A DNA stretch of 33,253 bases, taken from NCBI GenBank assembly GCA_017540825.1, contig JAFYAH010000053.1, positions 1-33,253 on the forward strand. Direction: 5' to 3'. The notes under the pieces are model-generated. The model saw nothing but the letters and a program-made list of their open reading frames with translations, was not told the DNA's origin and ran no database searches. The DNA comes from Candidatus Methanomethylophilaceae archaeon (lineage in GTDB: Archaea > Thermoplasmatota > Thermoplasmata > Methanomassiliicoccales > Methanomethylophilaceae). A program made the translations under genes and the position numbers. Shown here one piece after another: positions 929 to 33,075 of this stretch; within the stretch, counting starts at the first letter, position 1, and every line of letters begins with the position of its first letter.

Positions 929-3064
929 ATGTCCGATGTGTCCATAGAGCTTCGCAGCAAGGGGAAGGAGTGCTGCGGCTGCTATTCCTGCATCAACGCC
1001 TGCCCGCATGACGCCATCAAGATGGTCACCGACTTCGAGCTCAACAGCAGGGCCGTGGTGGACCTGGTATCCTGCGTCGACTGCGGCCTCTGCGTCAAAG
1101 CCTGCCCACAGCTCAACATCAGGCACGACAACAGCCCCAGGCCAAGATGCTACGCGTTCAAGGCCGACGAGGACGAGGTCCTGAGGAGCTCTTCGGGAGG
1201 GGCGTTCATGCCGATGGCCGAGGCGATCCTGTCCCGGGGAGGGCTCGTGTGCGGAGTCGTGTTCGACGAGGGCCTCAACGCCGTGTACAGGATGACGCAG
1301 GACATCGAGGAAGTCCGCAGGATGCAGAAGTCGAAGTACGTGTTCAGCGAGATGGGGGCCATATACAAGGACATCCAGGAGGCGCTGAAGTCAGGGAAGG
1401 AGGTCCTCTTCGTAGGCTGCCCCTGCCAGGTCGCGGCGGTGAAGGGATCCATGAAGGACGCCGAGGGCCTCTACACGGCGGACCTGATCTGCGCCGGCCT
1501 CCCTTCCAAGGAGGTCTACAGGAGGTATCTGGACGAGCTCTCGGCGAAGGGCAAGGTCGTCGGGCTGGGATTCCGCGACAGCAGGCTCCCGTACGGAACC
1601 TTGACGGTGAAGCGCGAGGACGGCAGCGAGGAGACGAGGTTCAAGGACCTCTACTTCGCAGGTTTCCTGAGGCACATGTTCAAGAGCGGGGCCTGCGCGG
1701 ACTGCGAGTTCGCGACGATCCCGAGGCAGGGCGACGTGACCATAGGCGACCTGTGGAACTACGACAAGATCCTCTACGACGTGGACGGGTCCACAGGCAT
1801 CAGCTGCGTCCTTGTGAACAACGACAAGGGGAAGCTTCTGTTCGACGAGATCTCCAAGAAGGCTACATACCTCCGCGAGATCCCCATGTCCTTCGTCATG
1901 CGCTTCAACAGGTTCAACGCCAAGCGTCCTGCAGGCCCCGCCTCGGACAGGCTCCTGTATCTCGTCGAGCGCGGGTACAGCATCACGAAGGCGCTGGACT
2001 ACTCCATCAACTCCAAGTACGACGTGGCCATCACGGGCTTCTGGAGAGCCCCCAACTACGGCGGCGACCTCACGTACTACGCGCTGTACAATGTAATCCT
2101 GGACATGGGGCTGGAGCCGATCTTCGTGGAGGCCTGCAATCCCAAGCCTGTGGGCGCCCGCCCCGCCAGCCCGAAGTACCTCAAGCATGCGTATCCGGAC
2201 TTCAGCATCGCGCCCTGGTATCCGAACAAGGAGAGGCAGGCGGAGATCAACCTGCGCGTCAAGAACGTCGTGGTCGGGTCGGACCAGGTGTGGAACCCCA
2301 GGCTGCTGTCGCCTGAAAGCCTCAAATCGTACTCCTTGGACTTCGTGTCGTCCTGGCGCAACTCGGTGGCCTACGCCTCGTCGTTCGGGGTCACGACCTA
2401 CGACACGGACACCCCGCAGAAGGCCGAGCACATCCGCATGCTCAAGCGCATCAAGCATGTCTCGGTGAGGGAGCTTTCCGGCGTGGACATATGCAGCAAG
2501 TTCGGCATCGAGGCCAAGCACGTCCTGGACCCCGTAATGCTCTGCGACATGGAGCATTACATGGAGCTCATAGACGAGGCGGACATGTCGTATCCGCCCA
2601 CTTACATGCTGGCGTTCATCCGCCATATCAACGTCCATATGGACCCCATGGCGATGTCGTCCCATCTAGGCCTCATGCCGATGAACGTGGGCGGACCGGA
2701 CTACGACTACAACAATCCTGCTCCGTATCCGATCACGAACGTCCGCACGGTGGAGAACTGGCTGAAGGCCGTATACAAATCCAGCTTCGTCCTGACGGAC
2801 TCGTTCCATGCGACCGTCCTCGCGATACTCTTCAAGAAGCCCTTCATATCGGTCTACGGCCGCATGGACGAGGCTTCAGGAAAGGGAAGGATGACCTCCC
2901 TCTTGAGCGTGCTAGGGCTCGAGGACCGCATCTACAGGACCACCGCGGACGCTATCGCCGCAGGGGCCCCGGACCGCCCCATAGACTACGAGGCGGTGTT
3001 CGAGAGGCTGGAGCCCTTCAGGAAGGAGTGCCTCCAGTGGCTCAGCGATGCTCTGGAACGTCGA
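929..3064 (+). CDS. Ferredoxin/FrhB-like - polysaccharide pyruvyl transferase fusion protein, paralog 1
   Basis: This is a 711-residue fusion when ended at CGA 3062-3064; the next standard stop is TGA 3086-3088, eight codons on. Two [4Fe-4S] motifs come first (C15/16-C18-C21-C25 and C49-C52-C55-C59). An FrhB/FdhB-like F420-reductase beta domain follows (about 75-350; GCPCQVAAVKG, DVTIGDLW). A polysaccharide pyruvyl transferase (PF04230-type) domain forms the C-terminal half (about 380-700; NYGGDLTYYALY, VVGSDQVWNP, LTDSFHAT). Such proteins occur in surface-polysaccharide loci, where the flavin/Fe-S part is thought to supply reducing power; that role is inference here. I chose the ATG at 929 because it lies just before the first cluster and 26 nt after a TATA box. 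The body holds no CGA codon. The end WLSDALE matches the paralogs, and the next codons are CGT CGA GGT CGA. Confidence 0.85.
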
Positions 3065-5213: not shown

Positions 5214-5305
5214 GCGCGTCTATGGACTGCCAGATAAAAATGTTCTTTGGTTACAACCTGATGGTTCTTGTTCAGTTTTTATATCTTGAACCGCTACTCC
5301 TGTGC
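5214..5305. promoter_or_regulatory. Divergent promoter region of paralogs 2 and 3
   Basis: This 92-nt AT-rich gap carries two outward promoters. For the minus gene, gataaaaa (5233-5240) is centred about 24 nt before the GTG at 5213. For the plus gene, tttttatatc (5276-5285) is centred 26 nt before the ATG at 5306. Between them is the palindrome ggttacaacc, followed by another ggtt, a candidate site for a shared regulator. Confidence 0.6.
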
Positions 5306-7420: not shown

Positions 7421-7423
7421 GGC

Positions 7424-9523
7424 TCGTTCCAGAAGGGCCTTCCTCAGCCATCTGATGGAGGCCTCGCGGTTCCTTTCCAGCCTGGTGTAGACGCTGTCGT
7501 AGTCTATGGCCGCTTCCAGGGCGCCGGACTCGACAGCCTCGTCAGGGGTCCTGAAGATGCGGTTCTCGAGGCCAAGGGTCTCCAGTAGCGTGGTTATCCT
7601 TCCGACGCCGGAGTTCTCGCTCCAGCTCCCGATAAGCGTGACGAACTGCTTCTTGAAGAGTATCGAGAAGACCGTCCCGTGGAAGGAGTCGGTGACGACG
7701 AAGGATGCGCCTCTGATGCACTTCATCCAGTTCTCCAGCGTGCCCATGTTGGTGCGAGGGTACTCTATCTTCTCGTTGATGTTGGCGGACGCGTTGCCCG
7801 CGGTCACAGGGCCGTACCCCAGCCTCTTGTATATGGCCTCCATCCCGCCGAAGTTTACGGCGAACATCATGTAGTTGAAGACGTAGCGGTCCGGGTATCT
7901 GGCCGTCGACGCGTCCGAAAGAGCCTCGAAGTGGCGGACGTCGCAGAGCATCACTGGATCCATGATTATGTCGGCCTTCGCCCCCATGTCCCTGCAGAGG
8001 TCCACCGCGGACTTCTCGCGGACGGAGAGATGGTCGAACCTTCTTAGGAGGCGTGCGAACGACTCGCGCTCCTCGTCGGTGCCCTCGAACCTGTTCGTTC
8101 CGAAGGACGCCGCCACCGAGACCTTCTTCCTGTCGTCGTGGACGAAGTCGAGGGCGTAGCATTCCAGGGTGTTCTGGCTCACGAAGTTCCTGTTCCAGAC
8201 CTGGTCGGAGCCTACCACGAACGTGCTCACCCTGGAGTTCAGCTCCTCCTGCTCGCTCTTCTTGGAGTACCAGCGAGCGATGCTGTAGAACGGGTACTTG
8301 GTGCTCAGAAGCGGAGGGCTCTTAGGGGCCCCTTTCGCGTCATTCCTGTACTCTATGAGTATGGGCTCAAGCCCCATGTCCTGGATGATGTGGTAGAGGG
8401 CGTAGTAGGTGAGCTCCCCGCCGTAGTTCATGACGCGCCAGAAGCCTGTTATCCCGACGTCGAACTTCCATCCCAGGCAGTAGCGCACCGACTTCGACAC
8501 GGAATGGCCGCGAGCCACCATGTGGAACATCCTGATCCATCCCAGATGCAGGTTGCGGTCGGGGCTGAAGCCTCTGTTCTCGTCCAGAACGCTCATCTGG
8601 ACGGGGCTGAGGTACTCCGAGAGGTCGGTGATGTCGTTGAGCAGGGCGGCCCCTTTCATGTCGTTGACCATGACGAGGCTGGTCCCGACCTTCTCCGCCG
8701 AATGGTTCCCGAGGGTGATGTTGCCCACGCGCGGAATCTTCGCGAACATGCATCTGGAGCAGGCCTGGTTCACTATCAGGCTCTGGCTGATCGCCCGCAT
8801 GTAGGGATCCTTGTTGGACATCTTGACGCTGCCGTCCTCGTAGGCGATGGAAAGGGTGCCCTGGGGCTCGCCCTTTGGCTCGAATATGATCCTGGACACT
8901 CTGCCTGACGCGGAGATCTCCTCGACGTACTTGTCGAATATGAGGGTGGACGGCTGGCCGTTGCATGCGATGTCCGCGGTGTACAGGTTCTGGTTTCCGC
9001 CGACGTAGTTCTTCACGGCCTGGACCTGGCACGGGAGCCCCACGAAGACGACGACCTTCTCCTCGTCCAGCCTGGACTTTATCTCTTTGTAGATGTCTCC
9101 CATGTCGCTGTACGTGCACTTGATCCCGTGCATCGGCTCGACGGCGCCCATGTCGTCGGCTATGGCGAACCTGGTCCTCAGGTCGTCGCCCATCACCGCC
9201 CCGCAGATGCTCCCGCCACGGTCGAACGCCCATCTGGCCAGAAGGGTGAAGACTCCTCCGGATGAGCTCGACCTGAGGGTGCCTTCGTCCGCCCGCACCG
9301 CGTAAAGGGCCGTCTTGTCGCCGAACGTCTGGTTGAGCTGAGGGCAGACCGCGGAGCATCTGCCGCATCCGACGCACTTTTCTGCGTCGATCCTGGATCT
9401 GTAGAAGCCATGGTCGTCTGCTTGGAGGGATATCGCACCGTGCTCGCATGCGTTTGCGCAAGCGCGACATCCTATGCATAGGAGGCGCGACTCTCTGAGC
9501 CTTTCGACGACGTTGGAGACCAT
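7424..9523 (-). CDS. Ferredoxin/FrhB-like - polysaccharide pyruvyl transferase fusion protein, paralog 4
   Basis: This is a 699-residue paralog when ended at CGA (complement of 7424-7426). Under the standard code it would continue 184 codons antisense through paralog 3 to TAG at 6872, giving 883 residues with a tail unlike any paralog. [4Fe-4S] motifs are C16-C19-C22-C26 and C50-C53-C56-C60. The FrhB-like domain has VGLPCQVQAVK, and the transferase domain has NYGGELTYYALYH, VVGSDQVWNR and VTDSFHGT. The conserved end (WLRKALLE) falls directly before the CGA, as in paralog 1. The ATG at 9523 lies 26 nt after a TATA element inside an inverted repeat. No CGA in the body. Confidence 0.86.
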
Positions 9524-9534
9524 GCAGCCCCTAT

Positions 9535-9567
9535 CTCTTGACCGTATTAATTCCTAACCGTCAAGAG
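9535..9567 (-). promoter_or_regulatory. Promoter of paralog 4 within an 8-bp inverted repeat
   Basis: ctcttgac (9535-9542) and gtcaagag (9560-9567) form a perfect 8-bp inverted repeat around the minus-strand TATA-like element (about 9545-9553), itself 26 nt before the ATG at 9523. The layout fits an operator that blocks TBP/TFB, or the downstream half of a terminator for the upstream gene ending at 9576. Confidence 0.45.
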
Positions 9568-9575
9568 CTCTGGTA

Positions 9576-10133
9576 TTACATTCTGTTGAACGCCACCAGG
9601 ACGGAGGCAAGCTTGGGGTTGTCGACCAGACCGTAATGGTTCTTGATCATCAGGTCGCTGGTCGGAGCCGGGCTGCACGATATGACGTCCTTGCAGCCGT
9701 TGCTCTCGTTGAGCTCGGGGAAGGACACAGGGGGCATGACGAACTGCTCTCCCCCGCTGGCGGACACGGTCGGGAACAGGACGAACCCGTCGGACAGCCA
9801 GACGACGTCGTCTCTGGCCGTGTACTTGTGGGCGGTGAACGGGAAGACCTCCTCGCCTATGACGTTGCCCTCTCCGGAGACGAGGATGACGGTTGGCTCC
9901 GGCGGAGGCCTGAACCTGGGATCCTTGACAATGCATATGACGGAATCGCGCTCCAAAGCCTGTTTGAACCCCTGGTTGTCCACTTCTATGTTGCCCATGG
10001 CGCGGACTTTCGCCTCTTCCTTCTCGAGCTCTCCGAGTATCTCCTTGTCGAGGTAGAACGCATGGATGACTCCTCTTAGCCCGCGGATGATCTCCAGCTG
10101 TTTGTCTCCGGGCGCGTCCGGATCTGGTGTCAT
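9576..10133 (-). CDS. Unrecognised 185-residue protein
   Basis: I do not recognise this protein. The first half is charged, with an alpha-helical pattern (LGELEKEEAKVRAM, about residues 34-47). The second half is beta-rich and proline-rich, with PRFRPPPEPTVILVSGEG, a segment VVWLSDGFVLFP and GGEQFVMPPVSFPEL. It has no signal peptide, membrane segment or cysteine cluster. The start at 10133 is preferred over an upstream in-frame ATG because a TATA element (10154-10165) is centred 26 nt before it. It ends in TAA. It is transcribed in the same direction as the regulator genes but from its own promoter. No in-frame CGA. Confidence 0.7.
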   Translation of the reverse strand: MTPDPDAPGDKQLEIIRGLRGVIHAFYLDKEILGELEKEEAKVRAMGNIEVDNQGFKQALERDSVICIVKDPRFRPPPEPTVILVSGEGNVIGEEVFPFTAHKYTARDDVVWLSDGFVLFPTVSASGGEQFVMPPVSFPELNESNGCKDVISCSPAPTSDLMIKNHYGLVDNPKLASVLVAFNRM

Positions 10134-10231: not shown

Positions 10232-10585
10232 TCGGCTGATCTCCACATCCTCGTCCGGATCGACGAAGCGGATGGAGCAGTCGCGCTTGAGCCCGAGCCC
10301 TCCGGCGACCTCTATCGCCTTTATAATCCCTGCCATGACCGGGCAGGCCGCATGCGGTATGCATTCGTCGGCCAGGCCGTAGATCTCGGACTCGTGTATG
10401 TTCGCTTCCACTTCCGAGTATGCGCTGATCGGCTGAAGGCCCCAGGAAAGCTTCAGCACGTTGGGGCAGTCGCTCTTGATGTCCAGATGGACCATCCCCA
10501 TGTCTTCTTTGGCGGTTATGAGCGTGCGCATCTTACATACCCCCGCGTCGACCAGCACCCTGCATTCTCCCTCGTTCTCGCTCAT
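10232..10585 (-). CDS. DUF6951 family protein
   Basis: This small methanogen-type protein resembles DUF6951: VDAGVC near the N-terminus, SDCPNV, and the C-terminal block HAACPVMAGIIKAIEVAGGL followed by a KxDxSIxF strand. The conserved cysteines (about C18, C39, C80) suggest metal or Fe-S binding; that is inference. The ATG at 10585 has a good ribosome site (taaggag, about 8 nt upstream) and overlaps the end of the upstream regulator gene. An in-frame CGA at 10232-10234 ends it at 117 residues; the next standard stop is TGA seven codons on (10211). This is its only CGA. Confidence 0.7.
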
Positions 10586-13299: not shown

Positions 13300-13916
13300 A
13301 GCAGAAGATGGGGAGGCACCTGAGCTTCGTCGAGTGCAGGGAATCGATGGGGCTGGGCGTCGGAGGAGGGCTCGCCCAGAGGGCCACCATCTCCGAGTCC
13401 GGAAGGGACGTCGTGGCGGTGGCTATGGGCCCCGGAAGAAGGCACATCACGAAGCCGGTGTGCGAGATAACGTACGCGCTGCGCGAGGAGGGCATAGACA
13501 CCAGCGTCCTCGTCGTCAACGCGGGCTCGGGGGTCCCTGCTGACGCCCCCGACATGACCACCGGGTCCTGCTTCGGCCTGGACCCCATAGAGGTGGAGAG
13601 GATACAGCAGTACAAGGTGGCGCTGATCCACCTGGGCAACGTGAGGGCGCACATCATCTACAAGGCGAGGCTCATCCTCAGGAACGTCGACATACCCGCA
13701 ATAGTCGTCGCCCAGTGCCCCATAGACTTCGAGGACTTCGCCGCCATCGGCATCAAGACCTCCCAGGTTATGCCGCCGGACGACAAGATCCAGACCAAGG
13801 GGGAGATCGTCCACATCGTGACCGGCGTCGTCAGAGGGGTGACGTGCACCCAGGACAAGCTGGACGAGATCGTCTCGAAGGTGCAGTCCATGCTGCCGGA
13901 GTGTGGTCTCCGATGA
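13296..13916 (+). CDS. mcrC: MCR operon protein C (McrC), part of the MCR activation complex
   Basis: McrC is a component of the MCR activation complex together with A2, Mmp3, Mmp7 and Mmp17 (known from Methanothermobacter). Family motifs are [51 protein letters not shown] and [10 protein letters not shown]. The start is taken as TTG (13296), which overlaps the atwA stop as TTGA and has the site ggtga 6 nt upstream; an ATG four codons later (13308) is the alternative. It ends with tandem codons CGA (13911) and TGA (13914), and the mmp3 ATG overlaps both. If CGA is a stop the protein has 205 residues. Here mcrC sits beside atwA rather than inside an mcrBDCGA operon. Confidence 0.95.
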
Positions 13917-17509: not shown

Positions 17510-18076
17510 ATGGAGACAGAGGTAATAGGCGACGACAGGTTCGGGAACGACGCGTACGCCCACCTGTTCGACGAGATCATGAGCGACCTGAACAAGGCAG
17601 TCCTCATCGAGAGGGCGAAGCTCGTCCTGAGGCCGGAGACCCCGCTGTTCGTGTTCTCGATAGTCCTCAAGGCGGAGCCGACGGTCAAGACGATATCCGA
17701 CGTGTCCAACGTGAGGGCGGAGGCCGAGAACATCCACCTGACCATAGTCCAGGAGCGCTACGCCCCCGCCATCCTGTCCTCGCTGTGGGGAAGGTACGGG
17801 AGGAGGGCGGTGATCCAGCAGACCCGCTTCGACCTCGACGTGCTCGGGGCGAAGGAGGACGACGTGGCCGCCATGGTGGTGTCGTCCGGCGAGGAGGACA
17901 AGCGCGAGATACTGGGAGCTATCTGGAGGTCGATGCCCGAGGGCATAAAGAACCGCGAGGTCCTGATGGACGGCAACGTGATCACCGTCGTCGCTACCGA
18001 GGAGATAATGCGCCCCGAGATGCTCGGCGAGGGCCGGGCCGTCCACGAAGAGATGGGGGGTGCTTCCGCTGTTCGA
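17510..18076 (+). CDS. mmp17: Methanogenesis marker protein 17 (Mmp17)
   Basis: Mmp17 (TIGR03291) is a known member of the purified MCR activation complex. This copy is 188 residues when ended at CGA 18074-18076, close to the usual family length of about 185. Recognisable parts are PLFVFSIVLKAEP, RYGRRAVIQQTRFDLDVLG and NVITVVATEEIMRPEML near the end. Under the standard code the frame would run 109 more codons inside mmp7 out of phase, to 18403, giving an arginine/glycine-rich tail that looks non-coding. The ribosome site gagggg lies about 5 nt before the ATG. With CGA as stop it overlaps mmp7 by 17 nt. A one-base deletion in the G-tract at 18055-18060 is the alternative explanation. Confidence 0.9.
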
Positions 18077-18998: not shown

Positions 18999-19426
18999 CC
19001 GTACGCAGGGGGACCTACGCGATTCTCGTCTCGATGGGCTCCGACTCCGTCCTGGATGTCGGCGCCCTCGGCGAGGTCCCCTTCCCTTCCGGGCGCTACT
19101 GCTACGTCGGCAGCGCCATGGGAGGCCTCGACCAGAGGGTGTCGAGGCACCTGACCAAGGAGAAGAAGGCCAGGTGGCACATAGACAGCCTGACCATGGC
19201 CGCGGATTCCGCGGAGGCGTACGAGTCGTACCCGGACCCCGTCCCCGAATGCGAGCTCGCCAGGATCGCCGAGGAGTCGGGGATGGAGCCTTGGGCGGAG
19301 GGGTTCGGATGCTCCGACTGCCGCTGCAGGACCCATCTTTTCAGGACGGGCGACGCGGCGTTCCGGAGGTTCCTGGCGGCTTCGCAATGCCGTCCTTTCC
19401 GTCCTCCTGGTGAGCCATTCTCGCGA
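18995..19426 (+). CDS. DUF123 GIY-YIG domain protein
   Basis: DUF123 is a small GIY-YIG-like family found in archaea alone or fused to endonuclease III. Visible motifs are GTYAILV (6-12), GRYCYVGSAMGGLDQRVSRHL (about 33-53), WHIDSL (about 61-66) and FGCSDCRCRTHLF near the end. Ended at the first in-frame CGA (19424-19426) it has 143 residues, the usual family size. The next standard stop is TAG at 19508, after a 28-codon tail of intergenic character; TAG is also the pyrrolysine codon here. The ATGA overlap with mmp7 makes it the last gene of the MCR-activation operon. A function in DNA repair is presumed from the family only. Confidence 0.85.
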
Positions 19427-22320: not shown

Positions 22321-22331
22321 CCTGAGAAACC

Positions 22332-22474: not shown

Positions 22475-23137
22475 GTGGTATGCATCCCAGCAGCGTCCAA
22501 GGCTCGCATTCTCGGAAATCTCAAGAAGTCCGTCGAGACGTGGGATTTCGCCCTCATGGAGAAGAGCGTGGACCAGGCCATGAAGATGGGCATACCTGCT
22601 GAAGAGATCATCGAGGAGGGGCTCGGGAAGGGGATGGAGTCGATCAGCAAGCTGTTCGACAACGCCAAGATCTACCTTCCCCAGGTCATGGCCGCCTCCA
22701 GGACGGTCGAAGGCGCGATGAAGAAGCTGGAGCCCATCCTCAGCTCCGACGCCGCCGTCTACCGCGGGACCATCATAATGGGCTCGGTGGAGGGGGACAT
22801 CCACGAGATAGGGAAGAACGTGTGCTGCGCCATGCTCCGCGGGGCGGGGTACAAGGTCATCGACCTGGGGTCGGACGTGTCTCCCGACGATTTCCTGAAC
22901 GCTGCCGAGGAGAACTCCGCGGACGTCATCGGGGCTTCGGCGCTCATGACCACCACCCTCCAGATGCAGAAGAGGCTGGTCCAGACAGCTAACGAGAGGC
23001 AGTCCACCGTGATGATGATCTTCGGAGGGGCCCCGTGCAGCAAGGAGTGGGTCGAGAAGATCGGAGGGGACGGCTATTCCGCTTCCGGGACCGAGATAGT
23101 CACACTGGTGAACAGCCTAATGAGCCGCAAGGGCCGA
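22475..23137 (+). CDS. mtmC: Monomethylamine corrinoid protein (MtmC-type)
   Basis: This corrinoid-carrying protein accepts the methyl group from the adjacent MtmB methyltransferase and passes it toward coenzyme M. A helical cap comes first (about 10-90; IPAEEIIEEGLGKGM, YLPQVMAASRTVEGAM). A B12-binding Rossmann domain follows, with the cobalt-ligating motif GDIHEIGKN (108-116; His110), GASALMTTT (153-161) and FGGAP (183-187). Ended at CGA 23135-23137 it has 220 residues, the normal size. The standard code would add 52 unrelated residues (to TAA 23293) that run into a pyrimidine tract, a TATA-like box and hairpins. The start is GTG at 22475, probably leaderless. The gene precedes mtmB, whereas in Methanosarcina mtmB comes first. 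Confidence 0.88.
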
Positions 23138-23514: not shown

Positions 23515-24894
23515 ATGGCTGCACGCAGGTATGTCGACGTCTTCGAGGCGTATGACCGCTTCACCCAAGGCTCCAAAGTGGACGAGAAGGACTGGGACTA
23601 CAACATCATACCCGCCGCTGCTGCGCTCATGAAGAACCGCTACGAGCTCGATTTCGGCGACAAAATCGTGCCGGAGGACCCGGAGATCGCCGACAGGCTC
23701 TTTCTGGCCGGGGTGGACATGCTCCTCGAGACCGGGATATACAACATCGACCTCGGCCGTGTGATGCACATCGACGAGGACGAGCTATACGAGGGCATAA
23801 AGATGGCCCCCAGGAAGCTCACCCTCGGCCATGGCAAGGACAAGTGCAAGTGCAAGGCCCGCGTCGGGAACTCCAAGAAGAGGCCGATAATACAGGGCGG
23901 ACCGACGGGCGCCCCCATGTCCGAGGACATATTCATCTCGCTAATCCAGTCGTACGCCGAGGAGCCGATGGTGGACGCAGTCGTGAGCGGGGTCCTGGAG
24001 ACCGTGGACGGCCACCAGGTCCTCACCAACTCCCCCTGGGAGATCAAGGCGACCATGGCCGAGGTCAGGTACGTCCGCGAGGCTGTGGCCAACGCGGGAA
24101 GGCCCGGGATGGCGATCTAGGGGCCTCAGACCCCGCTGTCCCCCAACGGACGTCTGGCCGCTGGGCTGGGACCGAACGGGATGAGGTACTACGACCCCCA
24201 CGAGTGCTCCCAGCTCAACGAGCTCAAGGTCGACATGGGCGTCCTGAACATCATCTCCGGGTGGCACTCCTCCGGCGACGTGATAATAATGGAGCAGATG
24301 CCGATGTTCGGAGGCTACGCCGGAGGGATAGAGGAGACGGCGATATGCGACGTCGCCACCACGCTCGCCTCCTTCGCGGCGTTCAACAGCGACATACACC
24401 TGGACGGCCCGATCCACATAAGGTGGGGGACCACAACGACCCGGGAGACGCTTCAGGTCGCCTCGCACGCCGCCGCCGCGCTGGACTACAACACGGACCT
24501 CCTCCTGGCCAACCAGTACTACACCATGGCCGGGCCCTGCACCGAGATGTGCCTCCTGGAGACCGCCGCCCAGGCCATAGCCGACACGGCGTCGGGAAGG
24601 GAGCTGCTGTCCGGGGTGGCATCGGCCAAGGGGGTGTCAACCGACAGGGCGACCGGCCTGGAGGCCAGGATGCTCGGGGAGGCTTCCGCCGCGACATGCG
24701 GGATGGACATACCCGAAGTGAACGCGATCCTCAACAAGATCGTGTCCAAGTACGAGATGAACTTCTTCAACGCCCCGCTGGGTAAGACCTACCGGGAATG
24801 CTACAACGTCGACGAGTCCACGCCCTCGAACGAGTACCTGAACATTTACGACACGGTGCTGGACACGCTTCTGGACTGCGGCCTCGGCTTCTGA
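23515..24894 (+). CDS. mtmB: Monomethylamine:corrinoid methyltransferase with pyrrolysine (MtmB)
   Basis: MtmB transfers the methyl group of monomethylamine to the corrinoid of MtmC. The frame is interrupted only by TAG at 24118-24120, which is codon 202, the position of pyrrolysine in Methanosarcina MtmB. Before it the protein reads AGRPGMAI, and after it homology continues: HECSQLNELKVDMG, EQMPMFGGYAGGIEET, HLDGPIHIRWGTT, NQYYTMAGPCTEMCLLE and GREILSGVASAKG-like. Total length is 459 residues, as in the family. The ATG at 23515 fits the family start (MAARRYVDVFEAYDR). It ends in TGA and overlaps the convergent HAD gene by 11 nt. No in-frame CGA. Confidence 0.97.
24118..24120 (+). other. Pyrrolysine-encoding TAG codon in mtmB
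   Basis: TAG in frame at codon 202 of mtmB, with MtmB homology on both sides. It is the only in-frame TAG inside a confident gene in the window, and no confident gene ends in TAG. Confidence 0.95.
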
Positions 24895-25564
24895 ACAGCC
24901 TTGCGCAGTCCCCGGCCTTCTCGAGGATTATGATCGAGGGGTCCGTGCTCTCCCACAGCTCCCTCCTTCCGCTTCCGGTGAGCACGCCTGCGAACAGCGC
25001 TCCCGCCCCGTGCGCGGACATGTAGTCGGTCAGGTTGTCGCCTATGTAGAGTATCTCCGACGGCTCCACGCCCAGCAGCTCCGCGAACTCGCGCATGGCG
25101 ACGGGAGATGGCTTGGCGTTGTCGTAGGACGAATGGTCCCTTCCCATGACGACGTCGAACCCTTCTCTGGTGCCTGTATGGCGGAGCGCGGATTCGGCGT
25201 ACTCCAGGCTGCCGCGGGTGAGGAGGCCGGTCTTGAGGCCGAGCGACCTCAGCTCCGCAAGGCATTCTTCGGACCCGGGAAAGGGGACGGCCTCGTCCAC
25301 GAACTCGATCTCGACGCGGGTGAAGGCGGCGTCTATCTCGTCGCTTATCGCCTGGTACTCGTTCTCGCGCCCGTGCGCTTCGAGCCAGCGGAGTATAGGG
25401 TAGCGCGGCCTCTTGATGAAGGCCTCGCTGTAGACCTCGTCGAAGGGGACGCCGTGGGACAATAGTACCTTCTTATCAGCCTCTCCGAGCTTCGAGTAGT
25501 CCACATGTGTCTTCAGGAACGTCCCGTCCAGGTCGAACCCCACGGCTTTGATCCTGTCTATCAT
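24884..25564 (-). CDS. HAD-superfamily phosphatase (phosphoglycolate phosphatase-like)
   Basis: All four HAD motifs are present: DLDGT (11-15; D11 nucleophile, D13), T116 in GLLTRG, K151 in NAKPSP and GDNLTD (175-180). The helical cap domain between motif I and II (about 20-95) is of the phosphoglycolate phosphatase type. Substrate unknown. Ended at CGA (complement of 24884-24886) it has 226 residues; the standard code would add 39 codons antisense through mtmB to TGA 24767, giving a Cys/Arg-rich tail. The ATG at 25564 lies 4 nt after the ycaO stop, so the two genes form an operon. The body has no CGA. Confidence 0.87.
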
Positions 25565-25568
25565 GTAA

Positions 25569-26789: not shown

Positions 26790-26840
26790 ATAGGTTCCTT
26801 AGCGCAATGGCGCACAGGGTACTTATCACTGATTGAAGAA

Positions 26841-27147
26841 GCGTCAGGTGATGGTAGTAGCCCCCCTTCTGTTTCAGACGGCATTCAACTACGCGTTCTA
26901 CCCGCCGGTCGCGGGCCGTTCATCCCGGCTGTATGAACTTGCTCCGATGGGGAGTCGCCGTTTCACCAAATCTCCGGGAACGTCACCGCCTAGCGGATCA
27001 TCCTTCTGCCGGATCTGTGTCGTTTCTGAGCCCTTGCCACAGCTCTCGCCGTACCGGATTGCCCCGGTCCATCTTGCCCTCGGAGGAGGGAACTTCCTCA
27101 GCTGGCGCCTAGACGCCTACCGTCGGCCGTCCTCCATCTCCTGACGA
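26841..27147 (-). ncRNA. rnpB: RNase P RNA (archaeal)
   Basis: About 307 nt on the minus strand. The ends pair as helix P1: cgtcaggagatgg (complement of 27134-27146) with ccatcacctgacg (complement of 26842-26854), with one mismatch. Universally conserved parts appear in order: gaggaagttccctcc near the 5' end (CR-I), gaaacggcgactcccc in the middle and gaatgccgtctgaaacagaag near the 3' end (CR-IV/V region). The RNA matures tRNA 5' ends. A TATA-like box at 27167-27176 is centred about 24 nt upstream. The neighbouring ACT-domain gene would run 50 nt into it under the standard code, but not if CGA 27188 ends that gene. Confidence 0.92.
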
Positions 27148-27166
27148 CCGGCCAATCGTTCCGACT

Positions 27167-27176
27167 GTTAAAAGGG
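27167..27176 (-). promoter_or_regulatory. TATA-like element of rnpB
   Basis: cccttttaaca on the minus strand is centred about 24 nt before the P1 5' strand of RNase P RNA. It lies inside the standard-code tail of the ACT gene but outside the CGA-ended gene. Confidence 0.5.
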
Positions 27177-27187
27177 CTTCGGTGCTC

Positions 27188-27706
27188 TCGGGGCAGCTCC
27201 TTGTCCTTGACCTTGAGCACGATGCTGGAGACGCCGCGGCAGGACCTGAGCTCCGGGATCAGCTCGGGAGGCACCGAGCCGTCTATGACAACCGTGAGCA
27301 CGGAGTTGTCCCTGTCCCCTCTGTCGTCCACGGCGGCCTGCCTTATGGAGAGCCCGTGCCTGTAGAGGACGCCCGTGATGTCGGAGACGATGCCGGACAT
27401 CTTCGCGTCGGTGGGGATTATCTTGATCGCCGAGCATCCGATCTCCGGCGCGAGGTTCTCCATCGAGAGCATGCACTCCAGCTTCGAGAATATGGCGTCC
27501 AGCTGAGGGGTGGCGGATATGCGCTCCAGGGTGGTGCGGACTATCCTCCTGTCGACGTCCGCGGCGCGGCAGATGGCGGAGTCGCTCTGCTCTATGTCGC
27601 CGCAGTACGCCTTTCCACCGGATACCCTGATCCCATGCGAGAAGAGGAGGCTCGCCACCTTCCTCTGTGAAGGGTATTTGCTGAAATGAGTATCCAGTAA
27701 ATCCAT
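27188..27706 (-). CDS. ACT-domain protein, predicted regulator of amino-acid metabolism (COG2150-type)
   Basis: The N-terminal part (1-80) is a helix-turn-helix-like region with SQRKVASLLFSHGI and AICRAADVDRRIVRTTLERI. The C-terminal part (about 90-168) is an ACT domain (AKMSGIVSDITGVLYRHGLSIRQA, LTVVIDG, LIPELRSCRGVSSIVLK). This layout matches COG2150. The effector is probably an amino acid (inference). The first in-frame CGA (27188-27190) ends it at 172 residues after KVKDKELP. The standard code adds 30 codons, two of which frame another CGA region, and runs into RNase P RNA to TGA 27098. The TATA element at 27726-27736 lies 25 nt before the ATG. Confidence 0.82.
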
Positions 27707-27873
27707 GAGGATGGATTATTTTATTCGTTATTTATCATTTATGTACATTATATTGAGCCATCATCATTAATGATGCAGCCGCATCCAAGTTGAGAAAGAA
27801 ACGGGCCCGGCGTCTGGTTCCGCGGTCTGCGAAACCGTTATTATGTCGCATAGCAGTGGGCGACGTGAGTTTT
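27707..27873. promoter_or_regulatory. Divergent promoter region between the ACT regulator and chorismate mutase
   Basis: This AT-rich 167-nt region carries cgttatttatc (27726-27736) for the minus gene and gttattatg (27837-27845) for the plus gene. The latter predicts transcription from about 27867, just before the GTG at 27868 and the ATG at 27874. The divergence of an ACT regulator from an aromatic-pathway gene suggests regulation. Confidence 0.5.
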
Positions 27874-28155
27874 ATGCCTGAAGCGCCCGAGACCGACGAG
27901 CTTAGGAACCAGATCGAGGCCATAGACGAGGAGATCATAGACCTCATCGCCACCCGCATGGAGATCGCCGACGAGCTGGCCAAGGCGAAGAGAAGAACCT
28001 CTCAGGGGTACTGGGACGAGGAGAAGGAGCGCGAGGTCGTCAGGAGGTACCACGAGCTGTGCGAGGAGGTCAGCCTCTCGGAGGACGAGGCGAGGCAGAT
28101 AGCGGAGGTCATCCTGCACATCTCCAAAGAGCGCCAGAAGCATTTCTTCGAGCGA
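27874..28155 (+). CDS. Chorismate mutase, AroQ type
   Basis: Chorismate mutase converts chorismate to prephenate for phenylalanine and tyrosine synthesis. The single all-helical AroQ domain is complete: LRNQIEAIDEEIIDLIATRMEIADELAKAK (about 8-37), with catalytic Arg, Lys and Glu positions of the family (R11, K35, then the E/Q-rich third helix IAEVILHISKERQ). Ended at CGA 28153-28155 it has 93 residues, the usual size. Under the standard code it would continue 188 codons antisense through the transporter to 28719. The start is ATG 27874; GTG 27868 is a possible leaderless start. The body has no CGA. Confidence 0.88.
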
Positions 28156-28170
28156 TCGTCGAGCTCGCTC
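28150..28170. terminator. Palindrome holding the CGA codons of two convergent genes
   Basis: gagcga (28150-28155) and tcgctc (28165-28170) are inverted copies with a 9-nt loop. Read from the left, chorismate mutase ends GAG CGA; read from the right, the transporter also ends GAG CGA. The structure could be a bidirectional terminator. Confidence 0.6.
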
Positions 28171-29073
28171 CACCGGCTTCTTGGTGTATATCGAGAACCA
28201 CAGGGACTCCACCATCATGCACACGAAGCATGGTATCACCGATTCCGGGGTCCCGGACAGGAGGATCATGCACATAGACACCGACAGGCCGGTGTTCTTC
28301 CACACGCACAGGACGTGATACACCGGGGCCGAGCGCTTGTCCGCGCCAGTCTTCTTCAATATCGTCCTGGAGACGAGTATCAGCGCCGCGAGCCTGGCGA
28401 GGACAGCCACGACGACCAGGAGGAACATGTCCGGGTAGGATATGAGGTATCCGCGGTTGGCGTTCACCGAGAGGAACAGCATCACCGCCATCATGAGGTC
28501 TATGACCGGGACCTTGAGCCTGGCGGACAGGCGCAGCCTCCTCAGCGGGACCGTCACGACGGCCGGGACGACGATGAACAGGACGATGTACTTCAGTATC
28601 TCGAGAGGGTCGACCGCGTCCCCGAGGAGGGCGAAGGAGATCAGCGGGGCCAGGGCGATCCCCGCCACGTACGTGGAGGCCACCGCGACCACGGCGACGT
28701 TCACGCTTCCCTTCATTAGGACGGCGGCGGTGACCACGGATATGGCGCAGGGCATGGAGGCAAGCAGGACCCATCCGTGCCACATGGCCGCATGGTCGGG
28801 GATGAACAGCGCCCCGACCGCGAGCGTGACCAGGGTGTTCACGACGTAGCACAGCAGCACCGACAGCAGGATCCCGTGCCTGTGCTCAGAAATATCGTCC
28901 TTGGACAGCCTGAGCCCGTCCATGGACAGGGCCATCTGCACCATCAGGGCTACGACGATGAGCTCCGAGGACGGCAGGTCCACGGTGTCCAGGAGGAGGC
29001 TCAGGGCGAGCGCGCCGGCTATCCAGACGCGCAGGTCCGAGACCACGTCGTACGCTTCCATCATGAGGCGCAT
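28165..29073 (-). CDS. Bile acid:sodium symporter (BASS) family membrane transporter
   Basis: This 302-residue integral membrane protein has about nine hydrophobic segments, including VWIAGALALSLLLDTV, ILLSVLLCYVVNTLVTLAVGAL, MPCAISVVTAAVLMKGSVNVAVVAVASTYVAGIALAPLI and IVLFIVVPAVVTV. The SMPCA...GS pattern is typical of BASS/SBF carriers, which take up organic anions with sodium; the substrate is unknown. Ended at CGA (28165-28167) the last residues are charged (YTKKPVE). The standard code would add 108 codons antisense to chorismate mutase, to TAG 27841. ATGs at 29064 or 29061 fit a leaderless start from the TATA element at 29082-29092 better than 29073. The body has no CGA. Confidence 0.8.
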
Positions 29074-29130
29074 GGGCCGCCGATATTTACGTCTTGACAG
29101 AGAATACGGGGGAGGCTCCAGGCCTTCCCC

Positions 29131-30111
29131 TCAAACATAGGAAGAGACGTCCAGCAGGGGGCTCTGGGGCTCCGAGCTCTCCAGCCTGGCGCCTTCGGCT
29201 CCCGCGGCGACGATGTAGGCGGTCCCGCCGCGGCTCTCGATGACCGAGGCGACCTTCCCCGGCTCGTCGGTGAGGGCGACCATGCAGCCGCCTCCTCCGG
29301 ACCCGGTCAGCTTCGCCCCGTAGGAGTATGGCATGGAGGCGTTGACCAGCTTGTTCAGCTCCTTGCAGGAGACGCCGAGAATCGAGAGGAGCTTGTGGTC
29401 CATGAGCATCATCCGCCCCAGGGTCTCCACGTCGTTCCGCCTGAGGGCCTCGTACCCGCTCAGGGTTATGTTGCCGATCTCCTCGATCATCTCCGTCGCG
29501 AAGTTGCTCCTCTTGGCGAAGCGCCTGACCTTGTCCACCTGCGGGCCGGTGGGCGCCTTGATGCCGGTGTTGCCGATCACGAACGTCATGTCGGGCACGT
29601 CGATGTCCGAGACGCACCAGGACCGGCTCCCGCGGCTGAACTTCCAGAGCTTCTTCTCCTCGCAACCGGGGATGTTCACGCCGATGCCGTTGCCGTGGAC
29701 GCAGGCGGACGCGTCCATGGGGCTCCCGCTGCCCTGCGCCGCGAGCTCGGCGTTGTACGCCTCCTCCACGAGCTCCCTCTCGCCGGGGTCGTCCCCCGCC
29801 ATCGCGCCGAGCGCCAGAGCCACGGCCGCAGACAGCGCGGCGGAGGACCCCAGCCCGGCTCCGGCGGGGATGTCGCTGCGGGTGATGAACTCCACCGCAT
29901 GGCGGAGGTTGCGGGTCAGGTAGCGGAAGTGCGGCTGCTTGCCGAACTCTATCGGCTCGCCGTTCAGGGTGTTGCGCTTCGCGCGCTTGACGCTGCAGGT
30001 TATCCTGCGGTCGGTGGCCAGGACCACGGCCGGCTTCCCGTAGACGACCGAGTGCTCCCCCAGTATGACGAACTTCCCGGGGGCGGATGCGGTGATCCAT
30101 TCCCTGGTCAT
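29131..30111 (-). CDS. mvk: Mevalonate kinase
   Basis: This 326-residue GHMP kinase phosphorylates mevalonate in isoprenoid synthesis for archaeal ether lipids. Motifs are the N-terminal SAPGKFVILGEHSVVYGKPA (about 8-27), the ATP-binding PAGAGLGSSAALSAA (about 84-98), SGSPMDASACVHG (about 129-141) and the C-terminal KLTGSGGGGCMVAL. The ATG at 30111 overlaps the upstream gene's TGA (ATGA) and fits the family start. It ends in TGA at 29131. No in-frame CGA. Confidence 0.93.
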   Translation of the reverse strand: MTREWITASAPGKFVILGEHSVVYGKPAVVLATDRRITCSVKRAKRNTLNGEPIEFGKQPHFRYLTRNLRHAVEFITRSDIPAGAGLGSSAALSAAVALALGAMAGDDPGERELVEEAYNAELAAQGSGSPMDASACVHGNGIGVNIPGCEEKKLWKFSRGSRSWCVSDIDVPDMTFVIGNTGIKAPTGPQVDKVRRFAKRSNFATEMIEEIGNITLSGYEALRRNDVETLGRMMLMDHKLLSILGVSCKELNKLVNASMPYSYGAKLTGSGGGGCMVALTDEPGKVASVIESRGGTAYIVAAGAEGARLESSEPQSPLLDVSSYV

Positions 30112-30632
30112 CGGTCTTCCAGTCCGTATCTCGCCATCTCTTCGCGAATGGCGTCGGAGGGGTTCCTCTTGTTCAGGAGGGGCTGGGGTATGTACCACCA
30201 CTGGTCCGACATCTCGTCCAGCCTCCTGTCGTAGTCCTCCTCGCTCTCCCCTTCGTTCCTCTCGACCTTGGACAGGGCCTCGTAGAGCTCCTTGTAGAGG
30301 TCGATCCCGAACTTCTTGTTCACTATGCCGACGCCGATGTAGCCGTCTATGCACTGGGCGACCTCCTCCGCCGTCTCGGGCGAGAGGCTGTCCATGACCA
30401 TGTCCAGGACGCTGTTGGCGGTCAGCTTGAAGATCATCTGGCGCTTGGCCTCCTCGGGCAGGCTGGGGTCCTCCAGGGCGGATGCTATGAGGTCGTTCCC
30501 GAAGAGGTCCGACATGGCCCTGACCCTGTCGGGGTTCCTGCCGAAGGTCATCTTCTCGTGGGCCTCTTCCGGGGACAGCTCGGGCTCGTCGTCGCCGAAC
30601 AGCCCTGCGTTGGGGTCTTTGTCGTCTGCCAT
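30108..30632 (-). CDS. Unrecognised acidic protein upstream of mevalonate kinase
   Basis: I do not recognise this soluble, acidic protein of 173 residues. The N-terminal 30 residues are acidic and proline-rich (GDDEPELSPEEAHEKM). A helical middle part follows (SLPEEAKRQMIFKLTANSVLDMVMDSL), then FGIDLYKELYEAL and a tail with DQWWYIPQPLLNKRNP. The ATG at 30632 has the ribosome site ggtga 5 nt upstream; the GTG at 30641 overlapping the aminotransferase stop is an alternative. It ends with tandem codons CGA (30111-30113) and TGA (30108-30110), overlapped by the mevalonate kinase ATG, exactly as at the mcrC-mmp3 junction. No other in-frame CGA. Confidence 0.75.
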   Translation of the reverse strand: MADDKDPNAGLFGDDEPELSPEEAHEKMTFGRNPDRVRAMSDLFGNDLIASALEDPSLPEEAKRQMIFKLTANSVLDMVMDSLSPETAEEVAQCIDGYIGVGIVNKKFGIDLYKELYEALSKVERNEGESEEDYDRRLDEMSDQWWYIPQPLLNKRNPSDAIREEMARYGLEDR

Positions 30633-30637
30633 TTCCT

Positions 30638-31762
30638 TCACCTTAGGCGGGCCATCACTTCAGCCAATATATCCATTCCCTTGTCTATCTTCTCCTCCGA
30701 AGCGGCGTAGGAGAACCTCAGGTGCCCTTCTCCGTGCTTCCCGAAGGCGGATCCCGGCGTGCAGATGAGGCCGGACTTCACAAGCTCTCCGGCGAGGTCC
30801 GCGGACGGCATGTCGAGGTCGAAGGAAGGGAAGGCGTAGAAGGCGCCCTTGGGCGGGACCATGTCCATCCCGGGGATCTCCGAGATCCTCCTGGATATCA
30901 GGTCCCTCCTGGCCTTGTAGGTCCTCCTGGCGTCCTCCAGGTACGGGTCGATGCCGGGGAGGGCGTCCAGAAGGCCGTACTGGGCGGGCATGTTGGGGCT
31001 GGCGCAGACGTGGTACTGCATCTTTATCAGGTCCGGCATGACGCTCCTGTCGGCGAACAGGAAGCCCATCCTCCATCCGGTGACGGCCATCATCTTCGAG
31101 AAGCCCCCGGCGACCACGGCCCTGTCCAGCCTGTCGAGGAAGGAGACGTGCTCCCCCTCGTAGACGAATGAGTCGTAGACCTCGTCGGACAGTATGACGA
31201 TGTCCTTGTCCTCGGCTATGTCGAGGAGGGCCTTCTTGGACTCCTTCGTGAGGACGCCGCCGGTGGGGTTGGACGGGGTGTTGACGACGATCATCTTGGT
31301 CTTGGGGGTGACGAGGGACTGGATGTCGTCGACGTCCGGCTGGAAGTCCCCCTCCGTGAGCCTGTACTCGACGCTCTTCCCTCCGCATAGCTGGGCGTGG
31401 GGGCCGTAGATGACGAACCCGGGGCTGGGGACCAGGACTTCGTCTCCCGGGTCCACGAAGGTCTCGGCGATCTCCAGGAGCGCGGAGGACCCGCTGGGCG
31501 TTATCATCACGTTCTCCCCGGACAGGTCGCCGTACCTGGAGTACCTCTTCGCGACGGCGTTCCTGAGCTCCATTATCCCGGCGGTGGGCCCGTACTTGTT
31601 GAGGCCGGCGGAAGCGGCCCTGTTCATCCCTTCTACGGCCTCCTTGGGAGGGTCCAGGTCGGGCTCTCCTAGGCCGAGGTTGATGGAATTGGGGCCTGCG
31701 AGGTCGAACATCTTCCTTATTCCGGACATCGGTATGGACGATATCCTCTGGGAAACCTTCAT
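30638..31762 (-). CDS. PLP-dependent aminotransferase, class I/II (aspartate aminotransferase family)
   Basis: This 374-residue fold-type I aminotransferase shows NLGLGEPDLDPP (about 28-39), YGPTAGIMELRNAVA, NTPSNPTGGVL, the ILSDEVYDSFVY stretch with the cofactor Asp, the Schiff-base lysine in GGFSKMMAVTGWRMGF (about 223-238) and the C-terminal substrate Arg in LRFSYA. Substrate specificity cannot be read from the sequence; aspartate, alanine or aromatic amino acids are all possible. The ATG at 31762 is 25 nt after a TATA element (31781-31790). It ends in TGA and is closely followed by the acidic-protein and mevalonate kinase genes. No in-frame CGA. Confidence 0.9.
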   Translation of the reverse strand: MKVSQRISSIPMSGIRKMFDLAGPNSINLGLGEPDLDPPKEAVEGMNRAASAGLNKYGPTAGIMELRNAVAKRYSRYGDLSGENVMITPSGSSALLEIAETFVDPGDEVLVPSPGFVIYGPHAQLCGGKSVEYRLTEGDFQPDVDDIQSLVTPKTKMIVVNTPSNPTGGVLTKESKKALLDIAEDKDIVILSDEVYDSFVYEGEHVSFLDRLDRAVVAGGFSKMMAVTGWRMGFLFADRSVMPDLIKMQYHVCASPNMPAQYGLLDALPGIDPYLEDARRTYKARRDLISRRISEIPGMDMVPPKGAFYAFPSFDLDMPSADLAGELVKSGLICTPGSAFGKHGEGHLRFSYAASEEKIDKGMDILAEVMARLR

Positions 31763-31780
31763 GCTCGGGGATTGTCGAAC

Positions 31781-31790
31781 CGCTATAAGG
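31781..31790 (-). promoter_or_regulatory. TATA element of the aminotransferase operon
   Basis: ccttatagcg on the minus strand is centred about 25 nt before the ATG at 31762. The TAG inside it is the standard-code stop of the upstream AAA-ATPase gene; a CGA stop at 31810 would free the promoter from coding sequence. Confidence 0.6.
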
Positions 31791-31809
31791 AAGGTTGCGG
31801 AGGCCGCGG

Positions 31810-33075
31810 TCGGGAGCCGTTCTCCGGCGTGTATCCTGAAGACGTTATCACGGCCGCCCTCTTGCCGCTGATGCCAAGGGCGATCCATACGACCTCGCCG
31901 TCCAGCGGCTCCGCGGCGTATCCCATCCTGGCGATCTGGTCCCTTGCCAGGCGGGCGGACTCCAGCGGAGGGTCGGCAGAGGACGTCTTGATCTCCACGG
32001 CTATCGCAGGGGAGCCGTTGCGTCTCGGCACGAATATGTCGCATCTTCCGAAACCCTTGGGAACCTCTTCGGAAGCTTCCATCCCAGAAGCGCGGAACGC
32101 TCCGGATATGATGTCCTTGTATCTGTCGTGGATCATCCTGCTCCGTTCGACGGACCTCCTGTCTTCTTGCCACGTCTTGTCCATGGCGCAGCCCCCGAGT
32201 ATGAACTGGATGTCGTCTCTGATGGCTCCAGCATCGCGAGACAGGATGTGCTTCATCAGGCTGACGCGGGCCTCCTCTTGGCGGTTGACGGCGCGGGAGA
32301 CAAGCGACTTGAATGCTGGCGAGATCTCGCGGTTCACCATCCCGACTTCGTATATCTCGTCCTCGCTGTCGAGGCGGTCTCCGGTAGGGTCTGCCCTCAG
32401 GTATCCTGCCATGGTCAGATAGGAATATACTACAGAAGGGTCTGAGTCTTCGGAGAACAGGTCCGGGTATGAGATGAACTTCTTGAGAGGGGACCTTATC
32501 TTGGATTTCGGGTTCATGTACAGGTTTTTGAGCTCTTGCAGGGCTATCCCGTCTAATTCGGATATGAGGTCTTCGGATATGCCGCCGCCTGTTGAGCCGT
32601 CCCAGTATTTCTTCGCAGGGCTCGAATCCCCGATGGAACGTGATTTGAGGTAACTCATCACGCTGTACGGATTGTACACTTCGGCTTTTCCGAACCTGTA
32701 GCCGTCGTACCATTCTCTAATCTCTTCAAGCACGTCGCGCCGGTCGTTCCCGGTGTCTTCGAGCAGCTTTTTAATCTCTTCCTGGGTGAATCCGAACAGC
32801 TCTTCGCCCTCTATGCTGAAGACGTCACAGACCACGGGGTTGTTGAAGCTGCTCAGCATTTCTGCTTTAGCCAGCGGCATTATCCCAGTGACTACGCCTG
32901 TGCGCATGTGGGGGTTGGTCTTGAAAGTCTTTTCCATAAAGGGCATCATCCGTGATACCAGCCTGTCGTATTCTTCATCCGCAGATATGTTCTGGAGATA
33001 GTGGTCGTATTCGTCGACCAGGATCATCGTCTTGTTCCCGTGCATCCTTTCCAGGATGTCGCAGATTTCTGCCAC
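31810..33075 (-). CDS. AAA-ATPase-like/PD-(D/E)XK nuclease-like protein, 5'-truncated
   Basis: This matches the AAA-ATPase-like (PF09820) plus PDDEXK-like (PF08011-type) family common in gut microbes. Visible are the Walker B-like ILVDEYDHYLQN (about 18-29), TGIMPLAKAEMLS, REWYDGYRFGKAEVYNPYSVMSYL, and a C-terminal nuclease-like end with AIAVEIKTSS and ARDQIARMGY. The N-terminal 100 or more residues with the Walker A (RRFGKS) are missing. The homologous frame is open only up to a TAA at 33133-33135, and the GTG at 33075 is the first usable start. The gene is therefore probably a fragment. First in-frame CGA at 31810-31812 (421 residues); standard stop TAG nine codons on. Confidence 0.75.

Follow-up and report, generated by a model that had tools for sequence, protein, structure and literature searches.

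Reassignments that turn a sense codon into a stop codon have previously been known only from mitochondria and plastids. In the described cases, UCA/UCG in the mitochondria of Sphaeropleales and UUA/UCA in the plastids of peDinoflagellates, the codon vanishes from coding sequence and marks the ends of genes, and unusual residues are found in the release factor (PMC6821328, PMC12574857). The authors of the plastid study, published in 2025, call their case the first sense-to-stop change outside mitochondria (PMC12574857). Codetta, by its own statement, is unable to detect sense-to-stop changes (PMC9825746), and a screen made with it is therefore blind to this type of change. Here, we analyze a 33,253-base stretch of a draft archaeal genome (C57:1-33253 of genome G000; hereafter the window), in which the arginine codon CGA resembles the organelle codons in all three respects: it has nearly disappeared from coding sequence, it lies at gene ends, and the release factor, aRF1, has unusual residues. 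Comparison of the sequences leads us to conclude with high confidence that CGA is a stop codon here, with rare readings as arginine.

G000 is a draft genome of 2.37 Mb in 73 contigs, with a completeness of 95.6%. Throughout the text, the letters C, L, G, and g label contigs, loci or records, genomes, and genera, respectively. With the aRF1 protein as query against named genomes, 80 loci were obtained, and a tree of 77 aRF1 proteins places G000 among rumen and gut Methanomethylophilaceae including UBA71, whose clade is the genus of G000 (g1). These gut methanogens are relatives of the source of a widely used PylRS tool. The window contains the end of mcrA as well as mtmB and mtmC, and the mtmB frame includes one TAG that is read through, in line with the use of pyrrolysine. 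Two further genomes were sampled in depth, namely G014, a congener present as one contig, and G052, a Methanomethylophilus-type genome. Within the open literature, a scope that leaves aside subscription papers and bioRxiv, we found no report of a CGA stop in archaea or of a prokaryotic sense-to-stop change, and a review of archaeal codes contains no occurrence of CGA (PMC9499178).

CGA at gene ends in the window

When the window is read with CGA closed and TAG open, it holds 25 nonoverlapping open reading frames (ORFs) of at least 120 codons, amounting to 10,240 codons in total, which end in CGA (14), TGA (8), or TAA (3). A sequence-only reading of the same DNA had proposed 14 genes ending in CGA, followed after 1 to 188 codons by a standard stop, with one of the frames running on into rnpB. 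All 14 codons were recovered at the same positions and on the same strands (Table 1), our count of the codons between each CGA and the next standard stop, 0 to 187, is compatible with the range proposed, and the frame that enters the RNase P RNA gene (26846-27142, minus strand) is that of the ACT-domain gene.

ORFs that are cut at CGA are free of CGA by construction, so that its absence from them would be circular evidence if taken alone. Non-circular support for the CGA ends comes from the ends of Pfam domains and from the 64-codon scans described below. The domain matches end just short of CGA in DUF2113 (residues 4-182 of 188), DUF6951 (9-107 of 117), and CM_2 (38-117 of 121), in DUF123, where the profile ends at residue 122 of 148, and likewise in MtmC. 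The gene at 29131-30141 (minus strand), read in its correct frame, has no in-frame CGA at all. Each of 20 further stretches sampled from G000 contained 2 to 8 CGA-ended ORFs, and treating CGA as a stop raised ORF coverage in 17 of the 20, a comparison that is partly circular and for which the ORF sets had unequal length limits.

Table 1. CGA codons at the ends of genes in the window (positions count from the first base of the window; "codons" gives the distance to the next standard stop).
CGA	Strand	Gene	Product or domain	Codons	Remark
3062..3064	+	929-3064	FrhB/polysaccharide pyruvyl transferase	7	predicted stop
7424..7426	-	7424-9646	FrhB/pyruvyl transferase paralog	183	predicted stop; one TAG inside
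10232..10234	-	10232-10585	DUF6951		predicted stop
10578..10580	-	10578-11537	DUF2111/DUF4443		predicted stop
13911..13913	+	13296-13913	MCR_C-like	0	standard stop directly after; uninformative taken singly
18074..18076	+	17510-18076	DUF2113		predicted stop
19424..19426	+	18980-19426	DUF123		predicted stop
23135..23137	+	22475-23137	MtmC-type corrinoid protein	51	predicted stop
24884..24886	-	24884-25564	HAD hydrolase	38	predicted stop
27188..27190	-	27188-27706	ACT domain	29	predicted stop; frame beyond enters RNase P RNA gene
28153..28155	+	27790-28155	chorismate mutase (CM_2)	187	predicted stop
28165..28167	-	28165-29073	SBF family	107	predicted stop
30111..30113	-	30111-30641	no Pfam match	0	standard stop directly after; uninformative taken singly
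31810..31812	-	31810-33075	AAA-ATPase-like	8	predicted stop

Codon scans at genome scale

For each of the 64 codons, we determined the share of in-frame occurrences after which the coding frame continues, using samples of 391 kb from G000 (about 17% of the genome), 800 kb from G014, and 435 kb from G052. In the first form of the scan, the training ORFs were cut at CGA, upstream windows bearing CGA were passed over, and CGA itself scored zero. The frame continued after 6 of 84 CGA codons in G000 (0.07), which is the lowest share of all 64 codons and compares with 0.11 for TGA (n = 166) and 0.20 for TAA (n = 25); the five other arginine codons, CGC, CGG, CGT, AGA, and AGG, continued at 0.79 to 0.91. 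Among the six continuing CGA codons, only that in the gene for aRF1 itself (L032:882, score 14.2) is followed by a strong coding signal, the rest scoring 1.4 to 5.4. The same form of the scan gave 0.14 of 44 for G014, with slightly looser settings, and 0.10 of 42 for G052. The six continuing codons of G014 lie in aRF1, in ribosomal protein L18e, at two places where the frame reaches the apparent Met start of the next gene, and in two extensions of 1 and 9 codons, and in G052, where 38 of the 42 are stop-like, the others comprise aRF1, one in-frame gene junction, and two short extensions.

A control in which nothing was cut or skipped at CGA gave 0.07 of 68 in G000, again the lowest of 64, and 0.09 of 22 in G014, compared with 0.85 of 174 in 17 outgroup loci. 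With the uncut table trained on G014, the share was 0.10 of 20 in G052 and 0.15 of 60 in G000, the lowest of 64 both times. The contribution of CGA to the detected gene ends varies widely, being 31% in G000, 5% in G014, 12% in G052, and 61% (11/18) in the sister lineage L159.

Homologous genes and stop swaps

The ORFs of the G000, G014, and G052 samples were also compared with each other, and a codon was counted only if, in both members of the pair, the aligned frame was also the best coding frame. Unfiltered counts had been inflated by CGA in shadow frames (29, 16, 7, and 12 inner CGA) and were discarded in favor of this best-frame filter, and a blastp clustering of ORFs, which mixed real and shadow frames, was excluded from the counts. 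The filtered comparison left one CGA among 2651 arginine codons in G000, two among 3785 in G014, and two among 2811 in G052 (5/9247 combined). Three of the five are in aRF1 and two in L18e, a gene that is missing from the G000 sample, though the G000 copy carries CGA as well. The same procedure found CGA at 86 of 1193 arginine codons in ten outgroup loci, from which it follows that the method does detect CGA where it is a sense codon, and at 23 of 1567 when five further genera of the family were sampled. The sequence-only reading had suggested counting CGA relative to the ends of gene families, and had named CGA at conserved arginines in many genes as evidence to the contrary; on such a count, CGA falls at family ends and is nearly absent from homology-supported coding sequence, and its occurrence at conserved arginines is confined to aRF1 and L18e in the three genome samples.

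The ends of six window genes were read across their copies in the genus, G000 included. For DUF2111, 17 copies end in TGA, 7 in TAA, and 3 in CGA (27 genomes), all at or within 4 residues of one position; if CGA were sense, the three CGA-ended copies would carry 137, 128, and 14 additional residues without counterpart in the others. Similar swaps occur for DUF2113 (TGA 26, CGA 3; n = 29), DUF6951 (TGA 15, CGA 3; n = 18), and DUF123 (TAA 11, TGA 8, CGA 4; n = 23), the end of the last varying by up to 8 residues. BadF ends in TGA in 28 of 28 copies. The McrC-like gene (n = 29) ends in TGA in 26 copies and in CGA in one, where it abuts a standard stop and is uninformative, and two copies run off their locus. 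No internal CGA was found in the matched parts of the 154 copies of the six genes.

CGA codons and altered residues in aRF1

The gene for the release factor is itself an exception to the avoidance of CGA. In the genus, exactly one CGA, at R78, is present in each of the 19 complete aRF1 sequences (425 arginine codons), and in the Methanomethylophilus clade exactly one is present in 12 of 12, at R25 in eleven and at R11 in one. Rows shorter than 380 residues (L112, L133, L134, L136) were dropped from the tree and from these counts; L112 and L134 have the CGA at R78, and L133 does not include the site. In 27 other aRF1 rows of the family, CGA makes up 36 of 223 arginine codons within the first 130 codons versus 9 of 386 later on, and versus the 23 of 1567 in the samples of other genes, a skew whose significance P values overstate because the rows are related by descent. 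Outgroup aRF1 genes have no such skew (14/150 early versus 18/281 later). The site differs by lineage (R11, R25, R27, R78, or R123), which makes a fixed nucleotide element unlikely and indicates that an early CGA is what persists. The reading frame and the protein alignment are unbroken across the CGA, and there is no programmed frameshift. Analysis of these sites suggests that the early CGA probably serves the autoregulation of aRF1.

Changes near the NIKS and YxCxxxF motifs of aRF1 had been proposed as a place to look. The motifs themselves, and GTE, are intact, and the notable changes adjoin them. Human eRF1 Arg68 (NIKS+7) aligns without a gap to Met65 of G000 aRF1, and at this site Arg is found in g23, Lys in g14 and g20, and Met or Leu in the remaining genera covered, with one to five genomes for each. 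The 17 outgroup rows have Arg (12), Asn (4), or Gln (1). In a simulation of human eRF1, a first-position C, CGA included, was disfavored by ~6 kcal/mol, a penalty that fell to 1-2 kcal/mol after an Arg68Ala change (PMC5681627). In addition, five N-domain positions (24/56/63/111/119), two of which flank NIKS, have the residues YATIA in all 20 rows of the genus plus L159, in 9 of the 11 Methanomethylophilus-clade rows, and in no other row.

The cognate tRNA and ribosomal protein L18e

A tRNA-Arg(UCG) was found in G000, G014, and G052; the cognate tRNA has thus not been lost. In a survey of the 30 best loci, a set that includes 16 of the 31 g1 genomes and leaves 15 outside, pair 31:39 of its anticodon stem is broken (A.A or C.A) in 16 of 16 g1 genomes and intact in 14 of 14 tRNAs of other genera. 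The anticodon stem of the G052 tRNA looks intact when the sequence is read by eye. In G007, another single-contig congener, 30 of 43 tRNA matches were readable. A 4-bp anticodon stem has been reported to favor the reading of UGA in other organisms (PMC13092985, PMC12153298), and by analogy the broken pair may help CGA reading in this genus. Separately, an intron-bearing tRNA at L031:1002-1109 is called Ser(cga) by ARAGORN, although by eye its sequence is rather like that of elongator tRNA-Met.

CGA encodes R30 of L18e in 39 of 43 family rows and in all 6 outgroup rows; within the genus it does so in 18 of 22, with CGT in the other four. Its context, ATC TGG CGA GAC, is almost invariant in nucleotide sequence throughout the order (L358, L433-L459), which suggests an overlapping RNA or DNA element in the gene. 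Because the outgroups have it too, the L18e CGA is older than the code change and is held by another constraint. We had considered it as part of the new code and dropped this idea in favor of an ancestral origin. Since it must still be read as arginine, tRNA-Arg(UCG) stays necessary.

These observations bear on the alternative, left open by the sequence-only reading, that CGA is either a terminator or an unassigned codon. The codon scans, the homology counts, and the stop swaps speak for the terminator; an unassigned codon is ruled out by the presence of tRNA-Arg(UCG) and by the arginine readings required in aRF1 and L18e. A normal tRNA-Arg(UCG) had been expected to refute a CGA stop. The tRNA does exist, with pair 31:39 broken in the genus, and does not refute it, as aRF1 and L18e need this tRNA.

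Distribution across the family

CGA as a stop is not private to one archaeon, as the sequence-only reading had framed it, and is seen both in the genus of G000 and in Methanomethylophilus-type genomes. Of the 34 CGA in 21 named loci of the genus, 21 are stop-like and 13 continue, 11 of the latter being the aRF1 codon itself. In L159, 11 of 12 are stop-like and the twelfth seems to run into the next gene, which is in frame; this lineage has the highest CGA stop share seen (11/18), and its own aRF1 gene ends in CGA. Stop-like CGA in the Methanomethylophilus clade is found in G052/L141, L118 (7/7), L131, and G051 (2/3), and over up to 14.9 kb G052 shares 98.6 to 99.0% identity with Candidatus Methanomethylophilus sp. 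1R26 (L141). Other genera use CGA as a rare but real arginine codon, with 6 of 6 continuing in G112 (g24) and 14 of 17 in G097 (g20), and in the outgroup loci it is ordinary sense (0.89 of 147 continuing). The main branches of the aRF1 tree are unresolved, so one origin of the CGA stop and two origins are both possible on these sequences.

The cmk gene ends in CGA in G052 and in seven named records of the Methanomethylophilus clade, and cbf5 follows in the same frame, either immediately or after one more codon (L116, L118, L121, L123, L125, L131:1394, L141:1090, and L432:1242). Readthrough of this CGA would yield a cmk-cbf5 protein fusion. The arrangement is absent from L107 and L135, and none was seen in other clades among the listed loci. 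We considered this CGA as a sense codon and dropped the idea, since it looks like the end of cmk with the next gene in frame.

Two other features concern pyrrolysine and a neighboring gene cluster. TAG is stop-like in G014 (0.04 of 24 continue) but mostly sense in G000 (0.62 of 16) and G052 (0.70 of 10), and from these shares pyrrolysine use seems to differ within the genus. The segment 929-9646 of the window holds four adjacent paralogs with Fer4, FrhB, and polysaccharide pyruvyl transferase domains, of which that on the minus strand at 7424-9646 has the in-frame TAG.

Discussion

The explanation that we hold to be very probably correct is that CGA serves as a stop codon beside TGA and TAA in this genus and in its Methanomethylophilus-type relatives, with aRF1 as its reader, competition from the tRNA, and autoregulation of the factor. 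For these last three elements, which we infer from the data above, the likeliest mechanism suggested by the sequences is a relaxed reading of the first position by aRF1, where tRNA supply would decide the outcome. The factor, the only one of its kind in archaea, would accept C as well as U before GA, the family aRF1 mostly having Met or Leu in place of Arg68, the residue that holds the NIKS loop. Over the history of the family, CGA would first have become rare as an arginine codon and later have been taken over as a stop. The retained tRNA-Arg(UCG) would compete at CGA, with the result that a few such codons are still read as arginine. When aRF1 is plentiful, its own mRNA would be cut short at the early CGA, and when it is scarce, the tRNA would read through, the level thereby setting itself. 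We further think it reasonably likely that this is the first sense-to-stop change in a cellular genome, and that it came about because aRF1 misread CGA family-wide and sensed its own level through the codon, a circuit that would have let CGA become a full stop in two genera while the arginine tRNA was retained; the meaning of each CGA would then be settled by competition between aRF1 and the tRNA.

Several observations weigh against this explanation or parts of it. Asn or Gln occupies the Arg68 site in five outgroup rows, among them L144 and L150, where CGA is plainly sense (26/29 and 18/18 continue), and Met is also found there in family genera in which CGA is sense; the change at Arg68 is therefore not sufficient, and residues are linked to function here by correlation within a single tree. 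If the first position were read in a relaxed way, CAA and CAG should be affected as well, yet in the G000 scan these are not stop-like (0.75 and 0.93), and CAA is not depleted in the window (28/224 glutamine codons). The tRNA-Arg(UCG) is present, so in principle CGA is readable as arginine everywhere. The lineage with the largest CGA stop share, L159, has no CGA within aRF1, and autoregulation is thus dispensable. The conservation of the L18e CGA extends to outgroups and so has another cause. As to the breadth of the pattern, the uncut scan of G052 with its own table yields too few windows, so that its agreement rests on the G014 table, and other loci of the Methanomethylophilus clade hold too few CGA, and in L130 the frame continues after 6 of 9, three of which lie antisense to aRF1. 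Finally, CGA inside a gene body stands without explanation at L095 minus 6920 and, weakly, at L045:11837. The former lies in an HTH-TPR regulator-like ORF, with coding signal on both sides of the in-frame CGA, and may represent either a broken gene or another site of readthrough.

Three other explanations of the CGA ends were considered. If CGA were an ordinary, rare arginine codon and the genes merely had some extra C-terminal residues, the existence of tRNA-Arg(UCG) and the shortness of some extensions would be natural, but extensions of up to 187 codons in the window are missing from orthologs that have TGA or TAA near the same residue, the coding signal falls after CGA as it does after TGA, and conserved sequence is free of CGA save in two genes; as a general account, this view is refuted, and we give it next to no chance. 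Alternatively, CGA could be a hungry codon, read so slowly that ribosomes stall and a rescue system ends translation without recognition by aRF1. The broken 31:39 pair in all 16 g1 tRNAs, which may alter decoding, fits this idea, which is nevertheless improbable: the tRNA has been retained and is needed to read CGA in aRF1 and in the ribosomal protein L18e, its anticodon stem looks intact in G052, CGA ends MtmC, a gene of the methylamine pathway, and the fixed CGA sites in aRF1, of all genes, would be left unaccounted for.

Editing of the mRNA from C to U, converting terminal CGA to UGA before translation, would explain why UGA, the commonest stop, swaps with CGA in orthologs. An editor would, however, have to spare aRF1 and L18e, the terminal CGA codons have no single shared base at -1 or +4, and the rarity of sense CGA in other genera of the family would be left unexplained; we know of no mRNA C-to-U editing in archaea and regard this possibility as very remote. 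A frameshift was rejected by reasoning, as neither a -1 nor a +1 shift makes a stop from CGA. Contamination was rejected because the contig with the tRNA (C44) also has CGA-ended ORFs, and an artefact of a single assembly because the same pattern is found in other genomes.

The organelle precedents had tiny gene sets, and the present case, in a whole archaeal genome, shows that a sense-to-stop change can also be survived by a genome of cellular size. The family also offers intermediate steps, from normal CGA, through rare CGA together with CGA inside aRF1, to CGA as a stop, by which the order of events in code evolution becomes testable, and it provides a natural test of how eRF1-type factors distinguish U from C. 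On the practical side, many genes of these gut methanogens (about a third of those in G000) are likely to have incorrect ends in their public entries.

Comparison with known systems

The same organism provides another departure from the standard code, reading TAG inside MtmB as pyrrolysine by means of a dedicated suppressor tRNA; that change is from stop to sense and is unrelated to CGA. CGA itself has been reassigned before, together with CGG, in Absconditabacteria (PMC8629427), but there from sense to sense (Trp) in bacteria of low GC content, whereas here the change is from sense to stop at about 0.6 GC. Blastocrithidia resembles the present case in that one codon is both sense and stop and that the anticodon stem of a tRNA has lost its top pair (PMC12153298). 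The direction there is from stop to sense, opposite to that seen here, and the short-stem tRNA of the archaea, found only in g1, is cognate to the new stop. The early CGA in aRF1 recalls the autoregulation of bacterial prfB (RF2), where an early in-frame stop likewise lies in a release factor gene (PMC12421855); in aRF1, there is no frameshift, the codon is CGA, tRNA-Arg(UCG) would provide the bypass, and the factor belongs to the archaeal/eukaryal type. A further parallel is with the sense-to-stop changes of mitochondria and plastids, from which the archaeal case differs in that it concerns a whole archaeal genome, an arginine codon of the CGN box, a factor of the aRF1/eRF1 type, and a cognate tRNA that has been kept.

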